A DNA stretch of 54,559 nucleotides. Source: a virus. Below, one piece after another: positions 219 to 14,051 of the stretch. Location of the stretch: positions 1-54,559 of IMG/VR virus record IMGVR_UViG_3300045971_000096. One strand, given 5' to 3'. The translations under genes were made by a program, and so were the position numbers. How positions within the stretch are numbered: position 1 is the first letter of the stretch; each line of letters opens with the position of its first letter. The notes below the pieces were generated by a model. It did not search any database. It was not told the DNA's origin and worked only from the letters and a program-made list of their open reading frames with translations.

Positions 219-965
219 TTATCCACCAACCACCATTGTGCCCCAAAGAGCACTGCTATCAAACGGAACCATATTGCCATTCTCGTCAAACTCATTAACC
301 TGAAACTTATCAAGGTCACCAAGCTTAATAACGATCTTTTTAACGACATCATCTTTAATATCAACAGGAGCAGAGATGTAAATTGGCATGTCAAATGATA
401 GAGACCATGTTATCATACGACGATCACCACCTGGAGGATAGTTTTCTTCATTGTTCAGGCCCACCAACTCAACTGATGCTATCTTAGTCCAGTCTAATGC
501 TGAATCTGACGTTTGGATTTGTAACACCGGATCAAACAGCATTAAAAGCTGCTCAAGGATTTGGTGCATTTGCTGCGTGTTGGATGCATATATCGAAAGT
601 TCTGTTGTCATGATATACGGGATAGGCATAACACGCGTAACAGTACGTAAGTCATTAGGATAGACTCCGCCTGCCGGTAGGAATGTTCTACGATCTACAA
701 TGCCAACACCTTTTCTATTTGGCGATAGTGCCAAGCTTGTCATGTTTGCTACCATAGCTGGTACAGAGAACGGTCTGTTCTGCGTATTGCCAGCTTGAAT
801 AGCAGCAACAACTCTATCTCTGCTACCAATAGAAATTGGAACAGTGATGAATTCTGGGACATCACATTCTCCTTTACCAGTTTGAACTTGCAACCCAGTA
901 AAGATATTACAGAATTGAAGAAGGTAACTTCTAAGTTGTCCTTCGTAGAAATAATTCGCTATCAT
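219..965 (-). CDS. gp15: Tail sheath stabiliser/completion protein gp15
   Basis: At 248 aa it is close to T4 gp15 (272 aa). The N-terminus, with YFYEGQLRSYLLQFCNIFTG, matches the T4 pattern YFY....RRY....GDLFS. The middle has the family's TELSIYA...MHQILEQLLMLFDP segment and a later R.ITWSLSFDM strand. In T4, gp15 forms a hexamer that caps the finished tube and sheath and joins the tail to the neck. The start overlaps the preceding stop as TAATG, so translation is coupled to the upstream gene. The sheath gene follows from its own promoter. Confidence 0.85.
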   Translation of the reverse strand: MIANYFYEGQLRSYLLQFCNIFTGLQVQTGKGECDVPEFITVPISIGSRDRVVAAIQAGNTQNRPFSVPAMVANMTSLALSPNRKGVGIVDRRTFLPAGGVYPNDLRTVTRVMPIPYIMTTELSIYASNTQQMHQILEQLLMLFDPVLQIQTSDSALDWTKIASVELVGLNNEENYPPGGDRRMITWSLSFDMPIYISAPVDIKDDVVKKIVIKLGDLDKFQVNEFDENGNMVPFDSSALWGTMVVGG

Positions 966-1690
966 TAATCGTCCTCATCAAATGAATGGGTAAGCTTTAC
1001 TGCACCTTTGTATTTAAGGACTTTAGTGTTGAACCAAGCTGTTGATTCAACATCCCAACCATAGGTGAAAGAATCAGAACCATACGAATACGTGTGACGA
1101 ACGCCATCGAAATGACGAGCCATTGTGTCCCATGGATAGTTGGTTCTCATTTGATCAGTGCCCCAATAGTTCTTAGCCCAGTCAGGAACTTCCTTGGTGA
1201 ACTTGTGGGCGAATTCAGCCCATTCATAGAACTGATCAAGATGAGATGCGCCAAGCACTAATGCAGAACTGTCAACTTCAAATAGGTAACCATAATCGGT
1301 CTGCCACTCTGGAAATGTTTTTTGTACAAATCTATACCAATCGCTGGTATATCCATCCCCGCTTTTAATAGCTGAAGATGTCCAGAAAGCGCCTGACGGC
1401 TTGCTATCACCTGCCCATGGACTCTCTTTAAATGATGTTAGAATCGGAATTGATTCTTCTTTAATTTCATCAGGGAACTGTTTCTTAATGTCCCGCCAAT
1501 CTCTATCGCGTTTACGTTCTAGCTCGCGCTTGGGGTCTCTACGTTTCGGCACAAAGAGCTGTGTGGCCATATTCTTTTCAGTACATGCACGTTGAATGTC
1601 CTTTAAGCGAGCATAGCCAGAGGAATAATCATCTGCCCATGAAGGCTCAACAACCTTCTTCTTTTCATAAAGAAAGTCTTTGAATCTCAT
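965..1690 (-). CDS. Unrecognised virion-associated protein with capsid-targeting-like N-terminus
   Basis: No family is recognised for this 241-aa protein. Its N-terminus MRFKDFLYE-K resembles T4 capsid-targeting peptides such as that of internal protein IPIII, and ends in L-Y-E (residues 7-9), which fits the (I/L)-x-E consensus of the T4 prohead protease. Residues 50-75 are very basic (RDPKRELERKRDRDWRD). Residues 100-157 (FWTSS, a spaced Trp, then YLFEVDSSALVLGASHLDQF) faintly resemble ADP-ribosyltransferase-fold proteins, but this is weak. It is coupled on both sides by ATGA and TAATG overlaps between a possible ADP-ribosyltransferase and gp15, so it is made late with structural proteins. 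Confidence 0.6.
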   Translation of the reverse strand: MRFKDFLYEKKKVVEPSWADDYSSGYARLKDIQRACTEKNMATQLFVPKRRDPKRELERKRDRDWRDIKKQFPDEIKEESIPILTSFKESPWAGDSKPSGAFWTSSAIKSGDGYTSDWYRFVQKTFPEWQTDYGYLFEVDSSALVLGASHLDQFYEWAEFAHKFTKEVPDWAKNYWGTDQMRTNYPWDTMARHFDGVRHTYSYGSDSFTYGWDVESTAWFNTKVLKYKGAVKLTHSFDEDD

Positions 1691-2583
1691 AATATAAAAT
1701 ACTTCACGTCTATTTTAAGAGCTGAGCAAAATTCCTGAAGCTCTTTGGTTGGCTTAGGCTGCATTCTAACTGCACAAAATTTACCATTGAACCAGATTTC
1801 TCTGTTGGTTGGAAATGGCTGACCTATTGTTTGGATTAAGAATCCATTCTCTCCAGGTGACATTAGAATATTGAGTGCATCAAATAAAGTTGGTGCATCT
1901 GTAGCATCCATCATCCCCGCATAATGCTTAAAGGCGCTCGTCTTTGTTTCTTCAATAGCCTTCTCGATCATAGGAAGAGTTATCTTCTTTAGACTGGGAA
2001 TGAAATTAGGAGTCTTCTTGCTGTTTGAAGCAGCAGCATTATCAAAGATAGCAGCAATCAATTGACCAACACCTCTAGCAATCCCAGTAGCATTGAGACC
2101 ACTACCAGCTGTTGGGCCCAAGCCAGAAATACCTTTCCACTTTCCTTGATGTATATCTGCTAATGGGCTAACAACTAACTTTGTTCCATTCTCTGGCAAA
2201 ATAACGTATGGGACTCCAGCATCACCATGAGTGTCACCAGCTTTTATCTTATCACTAGAGCAGATGAACGCTTTTTTGCGTGGTGCAATAGCGTTGATTT
2301 CTTTCCATGCAGGAAGAGCATCTAGTAATGAATGAAAATTGCCGCCATGATCTGAGTGAGCATCTCTAAAATCTTTTTCCTGATAACCATAATTGAAAAG
2401 GAATGCGCCTTTACCATGTGAGCCTAATCCTCTGTAAAGAACATGTCCATGTTCTAACTGTTTAACAGCATCAGTAAAATCATAGAGCTTCTTTTTTAAC
2501 CCGGCCAAGATAGCAGATGGGTGTCTATCCAAATACTCTGGTAGAGATTGCTCAGCTAGTAAAAATTCTTTGAAGCCTATCAT
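1687..2583 (-). CDS. Putative ADP-ribosyltransferase-like protein, possibly packaged and ejected
   Basis: This 298-aa protein has a T4-IPIII-like leader, MIGFKEFLLAE, ending in L-A-E (residues 9-11), a candidate prohead-protease site. Further in, VLYRG at 48-52 resembles the first arginine motif of R-S-E ADP-ribosyltransferases. FICSSD at 106-111 occupies the place of the S-T-S strand, and VPYVILPENGTKLVVSP at 124-140 resembles the VILPRG..V.V segment that follows the E-x-E motif in T4 Alt. The two catalytic glutamates are not obvious here, so activity is doubtful. Both ends overlap neighbours as ATGA inside the gp13-gp14-gp15 operon. The family call is inference from short motifs. Confidence 0.5.
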   Translation of the reverse strand: MIGFKEFLLAEQSLPEYLDRHPSAILAGLKKKLYDFTDAVKQLEHGHVLYRGLGSHGKGAFLFNYGYQEKDFRDAHSDHGGNFHSLLDALPAWKEINAIAPRKKAFICSSDKIKAGDTHGDAGVPYVILPENGTKLVVSPLADIHQGKWKGISGLGPTAGSGLNATGIARGVGQLIAAIFDNAAASNSKKTPNFIPSLKKITLPMIEKAIEETKTSAFKHYAGMMDATDAPTLFDALNILMSPGENGFLIQTIGQPFPTNREIWFNGKFCAVRMQPKPTKELQEFCSALKIDVKYFIL

Positions 2584-4481
2584 ACTGTCTTCTTGTTAAT
2601 GGATTGTTTTGTTGCAGACTGCAGAATGTTTCTTACAGAAGGTTTGTGCGAACTATAATCAGCTCGTCTATCTGTCTCTAAGTATAACCACTTGTTCTTC
2701 ACCATAGAGTATCTATACAGACGAGGCGCAATGTTTAAATGTGGTGCATAGTTAAGACGGAAAAAGTCACCATCATGCGCAGTGGTTAAATCTGGTAGTG
2801 CATAACCCTCACCATATGGTTCGCCACCCTTTGGTAAACCATCTTCAATGTATCCATTGAGTGTGCCATGTGGTCCTTGAGGTGGAGGATTGCCCTTAGG
2901 TGTTGAGGATTGCGGCTTGACAGGATATGGAACTGGTCCCATAGTAGTCCCATCATCTGAACCACGTTCTGGAACTGCATCTGCAGCTTCCTTCATTATC
3001 TCTTCCATCGAGGCAAGTGGCATGACATCTATCTGGTCTGCTACACCATTATTAAGAACTGAGTCAGCAATAAGATACTTCTGTGAATCAATAGTACCAA
3101 AGATGTCTCTATTTTCTTGTGAAGGTGTTGCTTGAGATGCAGAGAATCTGTATACTGTTGGGCGCCATGTAGTGCTGAACCCTTCTGATGCCCAACCAGT
3201 ATCAGTAACTTCCAAGAACTTTCTAACTGGTTTCAGGTTATGATCGTATTGCATTTCAGGAATGACTTCAACGATATCACCTACAATAATTGGTCTACCT
3301 AACTGCTGAACCATGGTCACGAATGACACAGTGAACGAGTATGAGTCAAGGATACTGAGACCGAATCTGCTAAGGTCAGACATTGAATCTGCAGGAGAGT
3401 ACTGCATCTTCATTAGAATAGGTTCAACACTATAATCACGATCTCTATTCTCATTAAAGAATAGGTCTTGAATATTATTAATATCTGTGGGCGCTGAATC
3501 TAGTACGTCCAATGCAAGCACTTCCCAATTTCCTGAACCTTGAAATAAGGTAGGAACTATACGTACTGCTTTTACTGTTAATGGAGTCTTAAAGCCCAAT
3601 GTTTGAGGAAGCGGGGATTGAACAAGATTAAATATGCCAATGCGTTTCCATACATAATTGACAGCAATAGTAAACATGTCACCGATAGCAAATGGAGCAA
3701 CTCCCTGCTCAAGGGTAACATTAATGATAGTGCTTAAAAATGGTACGCCTACGAATGCATTATTAAGCTGCAGAGTGCTTCCATCTGGCATTGATGCATG
3801 AACAGTAAATGCTGATGAAGATATAGCTACAATAGAAACAGTACATCTAGTAGCATTGGGACCAAATCCATTAAATGATATAGAACCATTACCTAAACCT
3901 GAATAAAGCGGATCAATAACCTCACATGATCCATCTGCAATTTCTACCTTGACCTGTCTAGCAAATTCATTGGGCGTATTCGCCTGTGTGATTTGTAATG
4001 CACCGACTTTAGTCCATTTAGCTTTCTCTGGAGCGTACTCGGTTCTTAGATTAACTAATCGTTTGATGCCAAAATCTATGCCAACATAAGCATTTGCAGC
4101 AACCGCTGCACCCGTTTGGAAAGATTTCCAAGAGGTGCTATTAATACCAGTTATCGGGAATCCAGGATAAGCCATAGATGCTATCACTGAACCTTCAGAT
4201 AAAATAGATCCGGTTCCTTGCTCGTGTACGCCTAATAACTTGTAAAGATTTATTGGGGCTCCAGATATACGAAGAGCTTCGGCTACGTAAGTTTCTTGTC
4301 TAAGCTGATCATTCTGCTCGCATAGATCCGGGTTAATGCTATTTAATTCCCATTCGCCTGACGGAAGACTTGGAGCTATATAAGGAGCAAGCGCAGGGTT
4401 ATTTAGTCCAGTTTGAACAGCTGAACCATTTGGATTGTTGATGCTGCCTGCACCATTTTCGCAAGGTAGTGTCTGTGGCAT
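2580..4481 (-). CDS. gp14: Neck protein gp14 with added domains
   Basis: At 633 aa it is far longer than T4 gp14 (256 aa). The part from about residue 365 to 480 looks like gp14: a FGLSILDSYSFTVSF strand, then GDIVEVIPEMQYD, then WRPTVYRFSASQ. Residues about 85-330 look like an inserted galactose-binding/discoidin-type region (SMAYPGFPITGINSTSW, later an AYVGIDFG strand and a GSGNWEVLALDVLD end). The C-terminus is proline- and glycine-rich and ends with a GDFFRLNY...NKWLYLETD motif like those in gp13. In T4, gp14 joins the head-completion ring to the tail. It starts 4 bases after gp13 and its stop overlaps the next start. Confidence 0.7.
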   Translation of the reverse strand: MPQTLPCENGAGSINNPNGSAVQTGLNNPALAPYIAPSLPSGEWELNSINPDLCEQNDQLRQETYVAEALRISGAPINLYKLLGVHEQGTGSILSEGSVIASMAYPGFPITGINSTSWKSFQTGAAVAANAYVGIDFGIKRLVNLRTEYAPEKAKWTKVGALQITQANTPNEFARQVKVEIADGSCEVIDPLYSGLGNGSISFNGFGPNATRCTVSIVAISSSAFTVHASMPDGSTLQLNNAFVGVPFLSTIINVTLEQGVAPFAIGDMFTIAVNYVWKRIGIFNLVQSPLPQTLGFKTPLTVKAVRIVPTLFQGSGNWEVLALDVLDSAPTDINNIQDLFFNENRDRDYSVEPILMKMQYSPADSMSDLSRFGLSILDSYSFTVSFVTMVQQLGRPIIVGDIVEVIPEMQYDHNLKPVRKFLEVTDTGWASEGFSTTWRPTVYRFSASQATPSQENRDIFGTIDSQKYLIADSVLNNGVADQIDVMPLASMEEIMKEAADAVPERGSDDGTTMGPVPYPVKPQSSTPKGNPPPQGPHGTLNGYIEDGLPKGGEPYGEGYALPDLTTAHDGDFFRLNYAPHLNIAPRLYRYSMVKNKWLYLETDRRADYSSHKPSVRNILQSATKQSINKKTV

Positions 4482-4485
4482 CTGG

Positions 4486-6363
4486 CTATCCGATCATGAA
4501 GGCCGTATTGCCGAAGTTTACACCACCATTACCAGCTTCATAGTCGGTAATCTGACGTAGTAGTTCATTCTGGAGTTCTGTTGCCATATTTAGCAGTGTA
4601 TCACCATTCAGCGTAATACCGCCATTAGGGCCAGGCAAATTGCCATACTTAGAACGAATCATACCCAGCATTTCCAATGCTTCAGATTGAGCCCAACCTT
4701 GAAGCCATTGCTTAGCCCATCTGTCAAGAAGTAATTCTTGCTCAGTGCGCTCCATAACTACTTCAAGGATAACACGTTCTTGTTCTAGCGAGATGTTGCG
4801 CAAGATAATGAGCTGACGCGATGCTTCATCCCAGGTGAAGACTAAATTACCAGCAAAGATTTTCTCGTAAGTTTCTGCTAGCTGAGACATTAAATGAATT
4901 GATAATACATCAACATTTGAGCCTTGATACAATTGATTAAAGAATGCTTGGGCATACAATCCATTCTCTGCAGACAAAGAACTAATGCCTAACATGTTAA
5001 CTCGATGTATTTTTAACACGTTTACAATTTTGTCTGTCTTATCACGAGGATCATTTAGATAATATGTGCTCTGACCACGCTTGAGTGTAAATGCAATATG
5101 ACGGTGCAAATAAGCATTATCGGCGCGACGTCTAAATTCATCTAAAGAATTGTCAATGGCTACGTTGAATTGTTCTTCTGAGAGCTCAACACATAAAGCT
5201 GGCCACCCAAGCTGATGTTTTAAAACCTTAATAAGTCTTAAACGCTCGTCATATGAGCCATCTGTACCAACACCAATTTTATCGGTTGTAGGTGCACCCT
5301 CATTATCAGTATCAGCTTTTAACCAATTATCACCAGTCCACACCATTAGGTCGCGTGTGCTTTGCTGATAAAAGAAATCTCCTATACTAGGAACACTTAT
5401 ATCAGCTGAGCCAGCGATTGTTCCACTTGGAACAATATTCTGCCATGTTGCAGCTGGCGTTCCAGGTATCAATACTCTTACTAAATCCGAGGCTGGTAAA
5501 TACCATGACCCTAAAGAATAAAATTTAATTACACTTTGCTGAATAGTACTAGCACTAGTTCTAAGCGTCAAGTAAATAAAATCGCCTATTGCTGGTGTTA
5601 TGGGGAGAGTACCGGTAACAGAAACACTATTGAATGGAGCCCATGCCGCGCCCATTTTTACTTGCGTGTTCGTAGAGTCGCAAATGGTCCAAGATGTACC
5701 ATTAAAATACTTTAACGCTTGTTCAGAAGTATTAAAGAAAATCTGGTTTTTTACAATGGGAAGAAGCTCGCCAACTGGAACAGTGTTTTGAGTACCTTGT
5801 ACCCAAGCGCCCATCGTTTCATTCCATACTTGAACAATATTTGACAATGGGTCAAAGTAAGCTTGACCATTTGTTGGATTAGATGGAGGGACTAGTCCTG
5901 TCGGAATAGAGCCTGCATATGTCTCTGATTGTTTTTCGAAACGAGATGATTCTAACGGATAGGACTGATTGCCAACTGTATAATACTGCAGTACATTAGA
6001 TGCGGCGTGAATAGACGCATAATACAGCTTAGTCGGATCGATGTTGGTAACATCTACTGTCTTCGTAGTTATCGGGTCACCGAAGAATCCATAAAAAGCT
6101 GCTACTACTTGAGCTGTGTTTATCGTATCAGCAGGTGATGCCCAGTTTGAAGATGCAGTGTAGCGTGTTCCATCGACTGGAAAATGGATAGAAGAAAACC
6201 GTGATTCCGATAAAAGAACAACGGCACCATCGTATGCTTGAGGCACAGAAGGCAAATCCCACGACAGTCTAAGTGTAGTAGGATTGACTTTAGTCGCCGT
6301 AATGTTTAGTGAGCGGCCCTCAACCCATAGTTCATGGGTGGTTAACTGAATCGAATCTGACAT
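4486..6363 (-). CDS. gp13: Neck protein gp13 with N-terminal binding-type domains
   Basis: This 625-aa protein is about twice T4 gp13 (309 aa). The gp13-like part begins near residue 375: LIKVLKHQLGWPALCVELSE and EEQFNVAIDNSLDEFRRR match the T4 LT.EQL..AIDDA pattern. Residues about 15-130 look like a fibronectin-type-III domain (TTLRLSWDLP ... LYYASIHAAS). Residues 160-360 hold four loosely repeated units of the form G..FY....L..W....W (for example NGQAYFD...VQVWNETMGAW, GDFFYQQ...MVWTGDNW). In T4, gp13 sits at the neck between portal-completion and tail proteins. The extra domains may decorate the neck surface. A late-type promoter lies 34 bases upstream. Confidence 0.78.
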   Translation of the reverse strand: MSDSIQLTTHELWVEGRSLNITATKVNPTTLRLSWDLPSVPQAYDGAVVLLSESRFSSIHFPVDGTRYTASSNWASPADTINTAQVVAAFYGFFGDPITTKTVDVTNIDPTKLYYASIHAASNVLQYYTVGNQSYPLESSRFEKQSETYAGSIPTGLVPPSNPTNGQAYFDPLSNIVQVWNETMGAWVQGTQNTVPVGELLPIVKNQIFFNTSEQALKYFNGTSWTICDSTNTQVKMGAAWAPFNSVSVTGTLPITPAIGDFIYLTLRTSASTIQQSVIKFYSLGSWYLPASDLVRVLIPGTPAATWQNIVPSGTIAGSADISVPSIGDFFYQQSTRDLMVWTGDNWLKADTDNEGAPTTDKIGVGTDGSYDERLRLIKVLKHQLGWPALCVELSEEQFNVAIDNSLDEFRRRADNAYLHRHIAFTLKRGQSTYYLNDPRDKTDKIVNVLKIHRVNMLGISSLSAENGLYAQAFFNQLYQGSNVDVLSIHLMSQLAETYEKIFAGNLVFTWDEASRQLIILRNISLEQERVILEVVMERTEQELLLDRWAKQWLQGWAQSEALEMLGMIRSKYGNLPGPNGGITLNGDTLLNMATELQNELLRQITDYEAGNGGVNFGNTAFMIG

Positions 6364-7368: not shown

Positions 7369-9678
7369 TTATAAACTCGCTAGGTGATCTTTCTCTTCTT
7401 TGCCTAAACGCTTTTCAGCGGCAGCAATAATCTCTTTCTTGTGTTTCTTAACTTCAATGTCTCCCCACTTGTCAGCTGTCACAAGCTCTGGTTCTGTACC
7501 TGGCTTCCCGAATACCACGTTGACACCATTGTAGTCGTCAAAGTTGCTACTCATTTCGCTGCCCATAACAAGAACCATTACTCCATCAGGCATATGGCTT
7601 ACATCATAGCCTTTGTATGTTGGGGTTGCTGCTTCACCAACATATTCAGATGGCTGCTTTAGAAGCGTGAGACGATCTTTTACGTCATAAGCCATAACCA
7701 AATATTGCTGCGATGCTGCTAAGTTGCGGCGATCTTGATCATCCCATGCCTTCTCATATCCTTCTTCATAGTCCTTGTTTGACTTTGATCCCTTTGGGTA
7801 AGGGTTCTTTGGTTCTTTCTTACCCTTAGCAGTGTAAGTGTAGTACACATACTTTCCAAGAGCCTTAGCTTTTGGGTCAGACTCTTCAGCGGCTTCTTCA
7901 ACATACCCTGCTGAATCTCTACGCTTAGCTTCTGCTTTCAAAGCCTTAAGACCTGAAGTTGCATTGCTATCACCCATCTTAAGTTGTGATTCAAAGTCCT
8001 TGATCATCTCTTTAAGCTTGTCATCTGACAAAGCTCTTACAGCTTCCATATCAACTTCTTCAGCTACTTTAGTTGGGGCTGTAATGCCATATACTTGTTT
8101 CAAATGATTCTTATATGCAAGGCGCATATCCTTCCATTCCTTCATTCCTTCTTCAAATGACTTCTTGAAAGCACGTGCGACCCCATCAATGTCATAAGCA
8201 AATGCTTTTGAGAATTCACCCTTCTTATCATCTTCAGTATGAGCAGCTCTCATAAGCTGTTGCCAAAATGGTTCACCTTCTTCGCCAAGGATGCCGCGAG
8301 GGATCATCTTCATCATATCGCGAATCAAGCTTTCACCAACACGATTTTTAGCTTCATGTTCTGCTTGATTGTTGTCGCGTCCTTTCTTAACAGCCCGGAA
8401 GAAATCATCCCAATCAAGCGGGTCAGACTCAGCAAAATCAGCAAAATCGTTTTTGTTAACGTACTTCTCAACGTCGATAAGCTTCTTAACTTTAATAACA
8501 CTACCATCAGTAGCTACTAGAGTTGTCGGTTTAGTTACGTCCATCAAGTATGAGTAGTCATCACCCTTGAACCACATCTTGCCACCCTTCTTCTTAAGGT
8601 ATGCAATAATTTCTTTTTCTAGTTGTGCTGGTGTAATGTTCTTTTTCCAATCTTTATTGTCATATGTCAAGCCCCATTCTTTGAGAGCTTCTTCTTTAAC
8701 AGTTTTAGACTTGAAGATGTTCCAAGTGCGATCACCTTCACCATCAATGTCGCTCAACGCAACTTGAACTCCATCTTTATCTTTGAAGATCCAACGACCA
8801 TCTTTGTCTGTTGATTTAGTTGTAGGACCAAAACGTTCCTTCATAAGCTCAGTAGCTTTAGAAGAAGATGTTGTGTAGTAGGAATCGTCCTTAGCTTCTG
8901 ATGTAAGACCACGCTTCTTCATTTCACGATCAAGAACTTTGCGCTGTAAGCCGCGAGGAGTCTTGTCACCAGCTTTAGCATCCTTGCCAAATGGGAATCC
9001 AAAATCACCCGTCTTAGCTAGACGTTGAACTGTTTCGTCGTCATAACCTTTATTACGCTTGACAATATCTTTAGGGTCAGCAGGTTTTTCGCCACCTGGA
9101 CCTTCAGCTTCCTTATCCCATCCAGCCATACCACGCTTAACGCTCTTGATACCCTTCTTGATGGTATCAACAACACCTTCTTGTGCAAGATGCTTCTTCA
9201 TGAATGCTTGACCAAGTGACTCATATGTTTGACCACTCAATGCACCAAGTGGTGTAGCTTCTTTGTATGCTGATACGAAGTCGCTTGCGAAGTCTTCATC
9301 ATACTGGAAGTAATAGACTGCTGAACGACGACCAATATCTTTCTCAGCAAGCTTAAAACCAGCTGCAAGAATTTCTTCTTCTGTTGTGAGGTCTTTAGGA
9401 AGACGTGATGCAAGATCATCAGCATAACGCATTTCTTGCTTGGGCGTCATTTCATTTTCTGGTTGTGGTATCACTTGTTCTTCCTCTTTTACTTTAGTTA
9501 TCTTTGTTAGTTCTAAGACATCAGTCTTGTACCATTCTTTGATCTGGCTTGATGTCCAAGATGCAGGAAATGATGCTATTGATGTAATCTTTTTGCCATC
9601 TTTCTTGACAATTACTTTATAGTCTTGCTTTTTCTCTTTAGCTTCTGCCTCAGCAATAGTAGTAAGTTGTTTGAGCAT
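7369..9678 (-). CDS. Large candidate internal head protein with capsid-targeting-like leader
   Basis: This 769-aa protein is very rich in lysine and acidic residues. It starts MLKQLTTIAE-AEAKE. The IAEA junction (cut after residue 10) is identical to that of the T4 IPIII targeting peptide, and I-A-E fits the gp21 protease consensus. Short (I/L)-x-E sites recur through the chain. No enzyme motif is recognised. It has its own late promoter, a good ribosome site (AGGA, 7-base spacer), and lies directly downstream of the gp23 terminator. The size, charge and leader suggest a head core or ejected protein; this is inference. Confidence 0.6.
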   Translation of the reverse strand: MLKQLTTIAEAEAKEKKQDYKVIVKKDGKKITSIASFPASWTSSQIKEWYKTDVLELTKITKVKEEEQVIPQPENEMTPKQEMRYADDLASRLPKDLTTEEEILAAGFKLAEKDIGRRSAVYYFQYDEDFASDFVSAYKEATPLGALSGQTYESLGQAFMKKHLAQEGVVDTIKKGIKSVKRGMAGWDKEAEGPGGEKPADPKDIVKRNKGYDDETVQRLAKTGDFGFPFGKDAKAGDKTPRGLQRKVLDREMKKRGLTSEAKDDSYYTTSSSKATELMKERFGPTTKSTDKDGRWIFKDKDGVQVALSDIDGEGDRTWNIFKSKTVKEEALKEWGLTYDNKDWKKNITPAQLEKEIIAYLKKKGGKMWFKGDDYSYLMDVTKPTTLVATDGSVIKVKKLIDVEKYVNKNDFADFAESDPLDWDDFFRAVKKGRDNNQAEHEAKNRVGESLIRDMMKMIPRGILGEEGEPFWQQLMRAAHTEDDKKGEFSKAFAYDIDGVARAFKKSFEEGMKEWKDMRLAYKNHLKQVYGITAPTKVAEEVDMEAVRALSDDKLKEMIKDFESQLKMGDSNATSGLKALKAEAKRRDSAGYVEEAAEESDPKAKALGKYVYYTYTAKGKKEPKNPYPKGSKSNKDYEEGYEKAWDDQDRRNLAASQQYLVMAYDVKDRLTLLKQPSEYVGEAATPTYKGYDVSHMPDGVMVLVMGSEMSSNFDDYNGVNVVFGKPGTEPELVTADKWGDIEVKKHKKEIIAAAEKRLGKEEKDHLASL

Positions 9679-11050: not shown

Positions 11051-11923
11051 TTAAGAGTTCATACCAGCAAGTTTTCTCAATTGAGAAAATTTATCGCTAG
11101 CTACGGGTTTGGTTGGAGCAGACTGCTCATCACCTGTTACAACAACTGACTCAACCAAAGGCTGTGTCTTTGCATCTGCTTCTGGAGCTGCTTCTTCTTT
11201 AAGAACGCGGCCGATGAAGTGGTTATATGCTTCCTCTAGACGTGATGTTTCTACGTTCTGAAGAACGAAAGACATTTGTTCACGCTTCTTACCATTAAGA
11301 GGAGCAAGTATTTTTTCTAGTTTGGATTCGCGAACCATCTTAGCTTGTGACTCTTCGAGTTTAGCAATTGTGGATTCTGCGTCGCCGAGTTTAGCAACGG
11401 CCGCTTGTAACTTAGATTGAATTGAATCTTCGTCGATGTGAGCACCATTGAATTCAGTAGCGAATGCTTCAAAGATCTTACGGCCAAATTCGTTTTGTTT
11501 AACGATTTCTAGATCTTCACGAAGCTCTTTGAATTCTTCGCTAAGGCGAAGGTCAAAGAATGCATCCATCTTATCTACCAATTGGTCTAGTTCTTCTGAA
11601 AGTGTTTCTGCCATAGCATGCTTTTCTTCAACGATCTTTTCAGCATATTCTGCTTCAAGGTCGCGGAAGCGTTCGATGTCATGACGAAGCTCTTCGATTT
11701 CTTCTTCAAGTTTCTTAGCAACGAAAGTTTCGACGTTTTCAATCAAGCTGTCGCGTTCGTTAGCCCACTGTTCAGCAATTTCACCTCTTACCGTCATAGT
11801 AACATCTTCACGAACAGTAGTTTTATACTCTTCGATTGCTGTTGTCCATTGGGTAGAGATTTCTGCTCTTGCCTCTTCGCTTAATAGCTCAGAGTTTAGC
11901 AATTTCTGAAGGATTTCATCCAT
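11051..11923 (-). CDS. gp22: Prohead core scaffold protein gp22
   Basis: This 290-aa, almost wholly helical, acidic coiled-coil protein (long runs such as EELRHDIERFRDLEAEYAEK) lies directly upstream of gp23. T4 gp22 (269 aa) is the main scaffold, degraded by the prohead protease after shell assembly; many (I/L)-x-E sites are present. The C-terminus, SQLRKLAGMNS, carries an LR-LAG motif repeated in the neighbouring 244-aa protein. The ATG follows AAGGAG, and a late promoter with a leader hairpin lies upstream. Confidence 0.88.
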   Translation of the reverse strand: MDEILQKLLNSELLSEEARAEISTQWTTAIEEYKTTVREDVTMTVRGEIAEQWANERDSLIENVETFVAKKLEEEIEELRHDIERFRDLEAEYAEKIVEEKHAMAETLSEELDQLVDKMDAFFDLRLSEEFKELREDLEIVKQNEFGRKIFEAFATEFNGAHIDEDSIQSKLQAAVAKLGDAESTIAKLEESQAKMVRESKLEKILAPLNGKKREQMSFVLQNVETSRLEEAYNHFIGRVLKEEAAPEADAKTQPLVESVVVTGDEQSAPTKPVASDKFSQLRKLAGMNS

Positions 11924-11989: not shown

Positions 11990-12053
11990 ACGCGTTCAAT
12001 ATTATAAATATAAACATCGCGTGAAACGTACAATTTTATTTATACGAACGCGT
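11990..12053. repeat. Inverted repeat enclosing two opposed late-promoter cores
   Basis: ACGCGTTC at 11990-11997 is the reverse complement of GAACGCGT at 12046-12053. Between the arms lie a plus-strand TATAAATA at 12003-12010 and a minus-strand TATAAATA at 12037-12044. The minus-strand copy serves gp22. The plus-strand copy has no sense gene ahead of it and would run antisense into the gp67-like gene. Confidence 0.6.
12037..12044 (-). promoter_or_regulatory. Consensus late promoter for gp22-gp23
   Basis: The minus strand reads a perfect TATAAATA, 114 bases upstream of the gp22 start. It is the best placed candidate for transcription of scaffold and major capsid genes. Confidence 0.72.
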
Positions 12054-12356: not shown

Positions 12357-13091
12357 TTAATAGTTACCAGTCTTCTTGTTGAAGCGGCCCACTTCTTCGC
12401 CATTGTCATCGCGAGCAACGACTTCATCTTTCTCATCTTTGAATGTTAGACTCTTGAAGTTAGACTTCATGTCAGCTTTGAATGCTTCCAATTTTTTAGC
12501 AATGTCATCAGAAGATTCCATCAAACCTTTGTCTTGAAGCTCAGCAGCAACAAGTGCAAGAAGATGCTTTGTATCTGTCTCAGCCTTACCAACCATAGAA
12601 AGATACTTCTTAACCAATGGCTCAAGTGTAGCCATCTTTAGGTTAGGCGTTCCTTGGATCTTAGCTGCAATTTTCTTTGCCGCAAGTTCATCACTAATGC
12701 CCATAGGAGCGAGTGCTTCCTTGACATCTTCTTCTTTAGGAGCTTCTTCTTTTTCTTCCTTAGTGGAAGCTACGCCGTCTTTGAAGCCAGCGTCATAAAC
12801 TTTCTGAAGCAAACCTTCAAGGTCTTCACCCGTCTTGCCTTCAGCTTTCTTTGCAATCTTCTTGATGATAGCTGGAATGTCGTCTTCAGCTTCTTCACCT
12901 TCAGCTGGAGCAGCTGCATCATCTGCTGGCTCTTCTTCAGCTTCTTCCTTTTCAAGAACTGGTGCAATACCAGCCATCTTGCGAAGCAAGTCAAAAGATT
13001 CTTGAAGTTCTGTTTTCTTTGATTTCTTTGCAAGAGCAGCACGGTCTGTTGAAAGGCCGGCTAGCTGTCTAAGTCTTAAAATGTCGCTCAT
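12357..13091 (-). CDS. Acidic prohead core-type protein with LR-LAG motifs
   Basis: This 244-aa protein is not assigned to a family. It opens with MSDILRLRQLAGL and repeats the motif as DLLRKMAGI at residues 35-42, like the gp22 C-terminus LRKLAGM. A possible gp21 site, L-Q-E at 29-31, separates the two copies. A low-complexity acidic stretch (about 48-72, rich in E, A and D) follows, then helical K/E-rich sequence ending VGRFNKKTGNY. It lies between gp21 and gp22, where T4 keeps core proteins, and has an AAGGA ribosome site. A role in the scaffold core is likely by context. Confidence 0.6.
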   Translation of the reverse strand: MSDILRLRQLAGLSTDRAALAKKSKKTELQESFDLLRKMAGIAPVLEKEEAEEEPADDAAAPAEGEEAEDDIPAIIKKIAKKAEGKTGEDLEGLLQKVYDAGFKDGVASTKEEKEEAPKEEDVKEALAPMGISDELAAKKIAAKIQGTPNLKMATLEPLVKKYLSMVGKAETDTKHLLALVAAELQDKGLMESSDDIAKKLEAFKADMKSNFKSLTFKDEKDEVVARDDNGEEVGRFNKKTGNY

Positions 13092-13398: not shown

Positions 13399-14013
13399 TT
13401 ATTTCTTTGTAATAGAGTCAATGAACTTCTTGATCTCAGCCGTCAAATACTTTTGAGCTTTCTTGTCATGCTGAACTGCTTCAGCAAGAGACATGATCTT
13501 TTGGTTTTCTACTGACTCACGGACTACATCTGGATAGCAGCCTGGACCAGAAGGTTGAGCTACAATGTCAAGAGTAACGAAAGCGAAGTCTTCAACTACA
13601 CCTTCTGAAGTTACATTGCCAGTACCGCGGGAAGATACTCCAAGCTTAACGCCACCTTCAATAAGGTTCTGAACAATAAGTCCAGATGGTGTGTTCAAAA
13701 CTTTGCACTTACCAACGGCATTGTCACCATCCATCCAAGCTTCAGTGATGATGTGAGATACATTCTTAAGGTCAACAGAAAGATTATCTGGGTGGTTAAG
13801 TTCACCCATAATGAAAGCACCTTCTTTTGCTTTTTCTGCAATAAGTCCAACAGCTCTTTGAATTTCAGCTCTAGGATATACTCTCTTGTTTAGATTTTGC
13901 TGCTCTGCAGCCATGATGCGACCAGAAAGATATAAATTCTTTAGTTGATCGCGAGACTCTACAAGAGCTGCGGCCACTGGCGTTAAGTGTTCAATGAGAA
14001 GTTGTTGTTTCAC
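13399..14013 (-). CDS. gp21: Prohead core protease gp21
   Basis: This 204-aa serine protease of the T4 gp21 family (T4: 212 aa) has GRIMAAEQQNLNKRVYPRAE early, then the catalytic histidine in GELNHP (H74), and the catalytic serine in GVSSRG (S127/S128). An aspartate in TLDIVAQPSGP (D149) is placed as in T4 VGVDAVWGPS. It cuts scaffold, capsid and internal proteins at (I/L)-x-E during head maturation. LIE-H at residues 6-8 and SLAE-A near 178 could be self-cleavage sites. Translation starts at GTG with a good AGGAG site. A late promoter inside an inverted repeat lies just upstream. Confidence 0.93.
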   Translation of the reverse strand: MKQQLLIEHLTPVAAALVESRDQLKNLYLSGRIMAAEQQNLNKRVYPRAEIQRAVGLIAEKAKEGAFIMGELNHPDNLSVDLKNVSHIITEAWMDGDNAVGKCKVLNTPSGLIVQNLIEGGVKLGVSSRGTGNVTSEGVVEDFAFVTLDIVAQPSGPGCYPDVVRESVENQKIMSLAEAVQHDKKAQKYLTAEIKKFIDSITKK

Positions 14014-14043: not shown

Positions 14044-14051
14044 TATTTATA
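14044..14051 (-). promoter_or_regulatory. Consensus late promoter for gp21
   Basis: The minus strand reads a perfect TATAAATA, about 30 bases upstream of the GTG start of gp21. The motif forms part of one arm of a perfect inverted repeat. Confidence 0.7.

Follow-up and report, generated by a model that had tools for sequence, protein, structure and literature searches.

What does a giant T4-like phage encode in an open reading frame (ORF) lodged between its neck genes? The question is raised by a 298-aa ORF on the minus strand of an IMG/VR virus record (IMGVR_UViG_3300045971_000096), of which a window of 54,559 nucleotides, the whole stretch of DNA under study, was analyzed. The ORF is surrounded by a T4-like head and neck region comprising gp13-like, gp14-like and gp15 genes together with the major capsid protein, the portal and a gp21-type protease (Table 1), and the source is a giant T4-like phage; judged by the capsid protein, the isolates closest to it are Xanthomonas phage XacN1 (53%) and the Stenotrophomonas phages CM1/RAS14. 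A sequence-only reading of the window had proposed an ADP-ribosyltransferase (ART)-like effector that is packaged into the head and injected. That proposal is sustained by the family, in which a Glu in the leader, the Arg and a Glu towards the C-terminus are all conserved, while the third motif and the missing glutamates of that reading had to be given up. We hold with moderate confidence that the ORF belongs to a new family of ART-like effectors that are targeted to the capsid and injected, acting in the manner of T4 Alt without being homologous to it.

The ORF matches phrog_12810 over residues 26-275 (8.2e-16) and is a member of that family, to which PHROGs assigns no function and for which one is proposed here. 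No family match to the 298-aa protein was found in Pfam, NCBIfam or PADLOC, megablast of phage sequences returned no match, and when 42 relatives were scanned against Pfam, the only matches were weak, each concerned a single member, and they were treated as noise. Relatives were identified by tblastn in Agrobacterium phage Atu_ph07, Salicola phage SCTP-2 and an uncultured 484-kb phage, with tandem arrays of family members in the first and last of these, and profile-guided scans of IMG/VR extended the collection to 16 and then to 70 loci. The loci hold 255 members (146 non-redundant at 70%), many of them in tandem arrays of 2-10 copies, with up to 10 divergent copies within one locus of ~12.9 kb. 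A family profile built without the target still recovers its 94%-identical copy (5e-17), and two scans with two patterns found no bacterial or archaeal relatives in 84,980 genomes.

Table 1. Features of the candidate effector gene and its surroundings (window coordinates; conservation among 139 relatives).
Feature	Position	Strand	Basis
Candidate packaged ART-like effector, phrog_12810 family	1687-2583	-	ORF, 298 aa
Leader MIGFKEFLLAE, residues 1-11, T4-internal-protein-like capsid targeting sequence	2551-2583	-	E11 conservation, FKEF match
YRG, residues 50-52, on strand 1	2428-2436	-	91-95% conserved; aligned to ModB YRG / ModA WRG
R73	2365-2367	-	99% conserved in family
R102, just before CSSD strand	2278-2280	-	99% conserved in family
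CSSD, residues 108-111, STS-like position at end of strand 106-109	2251-2262	-	aligned to ModA/ModB SFStDf..A
VILPENG, residues 127-133, strand after CSSD helix	2185-2205	-	model strand; P130 99% conserved
D143	2155-2157	-	94% conserved
Helical insertion, ~ residues 150-240	1864-2136	-	model secondary structure; missing or shortened in compact relatives
NREIWFNGKF, residues 260-269, predicted ART-type Glu hairpin	1777-1806	-	aligned to ModA/ModB E-x-E-MIPxG
E262, catalytic Glu candidate	1798-1800	-	96% conserved
Neighbour ORF, 241 aa, leader MRFKDFLYE, otherwise unrelated to effector	965-1690	-	profile match confined to leader
gp15-like tail sheath stabiliser (context)	219-965	-	PF16724, 6.6e-36
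gp14-like neck protein (context)	2580-4481	-	phrog_11591 virion structural protein; synteny
gp13-like head-tail adaptor Ad2 (context)	4486-6363	-	phrog_211, 4.1e-49
gp21-type prohead (head maturation) protease (context)	13399-14013	-	phrog_207, 1.7e-56

The candidate ADP-ribosyltransferase core

The YRG and CSSD segments are present where the sequence-only reading had placed them. R51 and G52 are retained in 91% and 95% of the 139 aligned relatives; R51 lies on the first core strand, the place of the Y/W-R-G arginine in R-S-E ARTs, and is the predicted NAD-binding Arg. C108-S109-S110 stand in the matching place for the STS position; close by, at a residue kept as Ser in 90% of the family, the target has A105. 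VILPENG had been read as the third ART motif and the usual glutamates as not visible, and both points proved wrong: VILPENG is an ordinary strand, and its candidacy as the ART Glu loop was rejected because conservation and alignment put the Glu at E262, within NREIWFNGK. This residue aligns with the second Glu of the ModA/ModB E-x-E at the ARTT hairpin, the place of the catalytic Glu, while the first Glu or Gln of E-x-E or Q-x-E is replaced by N260 (N-R-E).

When T4 ModA and ModB were combined with eight relatives into one profile and this was aligned without constraint to the family profile, LYRG fell on LYRG and all three ART motif regions were in register, the ModA/ModB STS strand and A-x-x-(Y/F) helix aligning with RSNSIFCTs..A..YG of the family and E-x-E-MlPiG with GNEIyIhG. 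The profile-profile probability is only 15.6%; confident alignment is confined to the STS region, and YRG and the Glu motif lie within the low-confidence ends. In a control against the same ModA/ModB profile, the family had a median probability of 0.53 versus 0.15 for 442 other phage ORFs, with an AUC of 0.80 that does not represent 146 independent tests because the members are related to one another; by this scoring the family does as well as genuine distant ARTs, T4 Alt reaching 0.74, a Pfam ART-PolyVal protein 0.30 and a PARP-like protein 1.12. Scored against the two family profiles, T4 Alt came 93rd and 163rd of 445, and a ModA scan for distant ARTs returned near-identical copies only. A phospholipase C match seen with one profile (A6) was put down to chance, since it lay wholly in the variable helices and the Glu hairpin and was gone with another (A9).

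AlphaFold models were obtained for the target (pLDDT 79.8, pTM 0.80) and for a 188-aa relative without most of the helical insert (pLDDT 93.7, pTM 0.90), the compact relatives of the family being 187-200 aa long. Both show a strand (YRG), a strand, a helix, a strand (SIFC/FICSS) and a short helix (A..YG), followed by two strands, helices and a hairpin starting at the Glu; this order of strands and helices fits ART proteins. In the structural check that had been suggested, with a non-ART fold as the refuting outcome, Foldseek against the PDB found no significant match for either of these models, both confident by pTM, and ART-superfamily proteins appeared only below threshold. Over three structural searches these sub-threshold matches, each of which alone is noise, were OspC3, CopC, exotoxin A (ExoA) domain III, TccC3 and RCD1 PARP, with phage PARP and PolyVal ART coming from a viral structure library. 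OspC3 and CopC stood at ranks 1, 2 and 6 of the non-significant PDB matches for the target model; we claim no membership in the OspC/CopC ADP-riboxanases, which are ART-related. The 28 significant matches in the viral structure library are uncharacterised phage proteins, among them several members of the Atu_ph07 array, one being named for a zeta-toxin part and one for a chorismate-mutase-like part.

Together, the conserved residues and the profile register support the ART assignment, the sequence profiles being more informative than the structural matches, and an ART fold of the family is likely. Alternatively, one could envision injected cargo that is targeted to the capsid but has a non-ART fold, for example an inhibitor of host defence or another enzyme, with the conserved Arg, Asp and Glu serving other chemistry. 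T4 itself offers a precedent in IPI, which inhibits a restriction enzyme and is not an ART (PMC9026906); the pTM 0.90 model matches no solved structure, its top weak matches being unrelated oxygenases, and the conserved R73, R102 and D143 are not among the residues usual in ARTs. We nevertheless consider this reading unlikely, because the three motif regions came into register with ModA/ModB unforced, ART-superfamily proteins recur among the sub-threshold matches of three structural searches, and at one locus (L015) the array also holds a genuine ART that carries a leader of this type.

The leader peptide and predicted packaging

The resemblance of the N-terminus to the leaders of T4 internal proteins, already remarked upon in the sequence-only reading, was borne out. 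In MIGFKEFLLAE the FKEF occupies positions 4-7, as in MKTFKEF of T4 IPI, the leader of IPII/IPIII being MKTYQEFIAE (T4 records); as in T4-type capsid targeting sequences, there are hydrophobic residues (F4 and F7) and a Glu (E11) at the predicted cut site. In T4 IPIII the first 10 residues are enough for packaging, with residues 4 and 7 serving mainly targeting and residues 8 and 10 cutting (PMC9026906). E11 is at least 90% conserved in an alignment of 42 relatives, although the linker after it is not, and residues 1-17 of the target model are of low confidence (pLDDT < 50). A prohead-protease cut is predicted after E11 (MIGFKEFLLAE / Q12), and the enzyme responsible is presumed to be the gp21-type protease encoded in the same genome, as is found with T4-type internal proteins. 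The likeness to IPI, IPII and IPIII extends to the general form M-x-x-F/Y-K/Q-E-F...E and to the use of one leader on unrelated mature parts; unlike the IPs, which are 95-193 aa long and are not enzymes of such kind, the family preserves an enzyme-like core.

A leader pattern, chosen after the observed leaders were known, occurs in 94 of the 146 non-redundant members as compared with 5% of shuffles; outside the family it is found in 22/99 adjacent genes and 43/403 other ORFs of the loci. This pattern was adopted for its closeness to the observed leaders because a simpler test, a Glu with a hydrophobic P4, had separated the family only moderately (32/61 family members, 22% of shuffles and 42/182 other ORFs). 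At two loci (L008 and L010) several genes around gp13/gp14/gp15, from within and outside the family, begin with internal-protein-like leaders, including MRFKQYLLE, MRFKTFLE, MRFKDFLNE and MITFKQFLLSE. In the window, the ORF downstream of the candidate effector (conserved motifs FWTSS and WDVESTAWFN) carries such a leader as well and is probably a second, unrelated packaged protein; its family and that of the effector are found together in L001, L007, L034/L035 and L004. The idea that it is a second ART was found to be unsupported, the profile comparison with the effector family aligning only the leader.

Leaders of this kind also recur on proteins of other recognizable types. In a single array of L015, three proteins (995-1858, 9079-9609 and 4021-4461) begin with MRYIEL, MKAIEL and MRAIEL; one is an ART-PolyVal protein (PF18760; 9.9e-8), one is weakly PARP-like and one has FYHGT. 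The ART-PolyVal and PARP-like proteins share a gene array and a kind of leader with the effector family, but they belong to other sequence families and have YHGS/YHGT in place of YRG. One kind of leader seems to serve different ART families. P-loop/zeta-toxin-like kinases that also begin with an internal-protein-like leader stand beside effector members at L013:5848-6549, L012:5379-6020, L055:6813-7514 and L033:11051-11764, the Pfam comparison of these neighbours covering the one in L013, and gp53 of Atu_ph07 (L002:15726-18062) is such a kinase fused to a member of the effector family. These kinases are possible further injected cargo.

Published virion data bear on packaging through Atu_ph07, whose array of family members is gp53-gp63 (numbering anchored on gp2, gp4, gp5, gp18 and gp70) and falls within CDS 31-76; for this cluster as a whole, ESI-MS/MS of virions identified 29 proteins (PMC6102473). 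The leader, the genomic context and this virion cluster support packaging of the effector. It is also conceivable that the ORF encodes an ART-like enzyme that is made and used in the infected cell without being packaged, the leader being a signal for translation start, folding or membrane association. T4 ModA and ModB are enzymes produced in the cell, which are without an internal-protein-like leader or cut site and whose genes adjoin srd, not virion genes; furthermore, some group-B relatives have no obvious Glu cut site after the leader and often a PGEK-like sequence there. Against this, the motif equals the leaders of T4 internal proteins and is common to unrelated proteins of the same operons, and the genes lie among virion genes and, in Atu_ph07, inside the main virion-protein cluster; we regard this alternative as quite improbable.

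Neck-gene setting, selection and probable exchange

Location of the ORF inside the neck operon, another element of the sequence-only reading, is confirmed by the flanking gp13-like, gp14-like and gp15 genes, and the same arrangement recurs in other loci, with relatives in the gp13/gp14/gp15/sheath region; four-nucleotide overlaps tie the ORF to the stop of the gp14-like gene and to the start of the next ORF. In XacN1 and RAS14, gp15 comes directly after gp14 with no ORF between, so the two ORFs that separate these genes in the window are an insertion. A neck, sheath or neighbour-ORF-family gene lies within 4 kb in 21 of the 84 loci with family members, and other loci hold arrays elsewhere, which makes the neck slot one of several homes of the family. 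The assertion that the protein is made late with the neck proteins agrees with its operon, and it is from the operon only that late expression can be read: the T4-type late promoter TATAAATA is not enriched, and none was found near the ORF.

Two further observations concern the head genes. Exact TATAAATA boxes at 12037-12044 and 14044-14051 on the minus strand, which immediately precede the genes for the gp22-like and gp21-like proteins, are placed as T4 late promoters are, the total count equalling chance expectation. A short motif, LR(K/Q)(L/M)AG, is found in two different head-core proteins, at the C-terminus of one (11051-11923) and at the N-terminus of the other (12357-13091), its copies being QLRKLAGMNS, and LRLRQLAGLST and LLRKMAGIAP; it is possibly a common core-binding or processing motif.

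Comparison with the copy in L001 (L001:1813-2709) gave a dN/dS of 0.05, indicating that the gene is under constraint (purifying selection), and a dS of 0.70, whereas the flanking neck genes have a dS of at least 1.9 against the same locus. The earlier suggestion that the protein may be inactive, and with it the notion of an inactive remnant, is argued against by this low dN/dS and by the retention of R51, R73, R102, P130, D143 and E262. The gene seems to have been exchanged between phages separately from its neighbours, and an exchange confined to one gene, at a dS below that of its surroundings, points to an arms race in which injected cargo is at stake. That the ORF encodes a neck protein with a role in structure or assembly, such as an accessory adaptor or tail-terminator helper, is suggested by its place between gp14 and gp15 and its overlapping reading frames, but is very improbable given the direct succession of gp14 and gp15 in XacN1 and RAS14, the arrays of up to 10 divergent copies elsewhere in other phages, and the exchange of the gene apart from its neighbours.

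A proposed injected enzyme and its wider family

Under the reading that we prefer, an injected ART-like effector, the protein would be an internal head protein expressed from the neck operon of a T4-like giant phage. Its first ~11 residues would guide it into the prohead core, where the gp21-type protease would trim it after E11, and the trimmed protein would stay in the mature head and then be injected along with the DNA. In the host it would act as a mono-ADP-ribosyltransferase-like enzyme, with R51 on the first strand holding NAD, the CSSD strand standing in for STS and E262 of the final hairpin serving as the catalytic glutamate, and would modify a host macromolecule early in infection in favour of the phage. 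The analysis establishes the ORF, its family, the conserved residues, the leader held in common, the place in the genome and purifying selection; that the protein is packaged, cleaved and injected, has an ART fold, uses NAD and acts on a host target is what we infer.

The closest functional parallel is T4 Alt, for which a 7-residue propeptide has been reported (PMC9026906). The two proteins share predicted packaging by a short N-terminal propeptide ending in Glu (MELITELFDE in Alt), the order Arg, Ser-like, Glu, and a presumed host-directed ART activity. They differ in that the target has 298 aa as compared with 682 aa in Alt, is without the extra domain and has no detectable sequence homology to it, carries N-x-E in place of E-x-E, is located in the neck operon and has relatives in multi-copy arrays. 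ModA and ModB align with the target at YRG, at the STS-like region followed by A..(Y/F) and at the Glu hairpin; the low profile probability given above sets them apart.

More tentatively, we can imagine a large unrecognised superfamily of head-packaged ART-like enzymes, in which a common leader would bring as many as ten or more divergent paralogues together into each virion and the gaps between neck genes would form an exchangeable cargo slot shared with further injected effectors, namely PolyVal ARTs, PARP-like proteins and zeta-toxin-like kinases. If the reading as an injected ART-like effector is right, injected ADP-ribosylation, known from the single T4 Alt, would become a multi-enzyme strategy, and a family of "unknown function" with more than 100 divergent members would gain a testable one. 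On the same condition, the leader would provide a general handle by which the proteins that giant phages inject could be read out.
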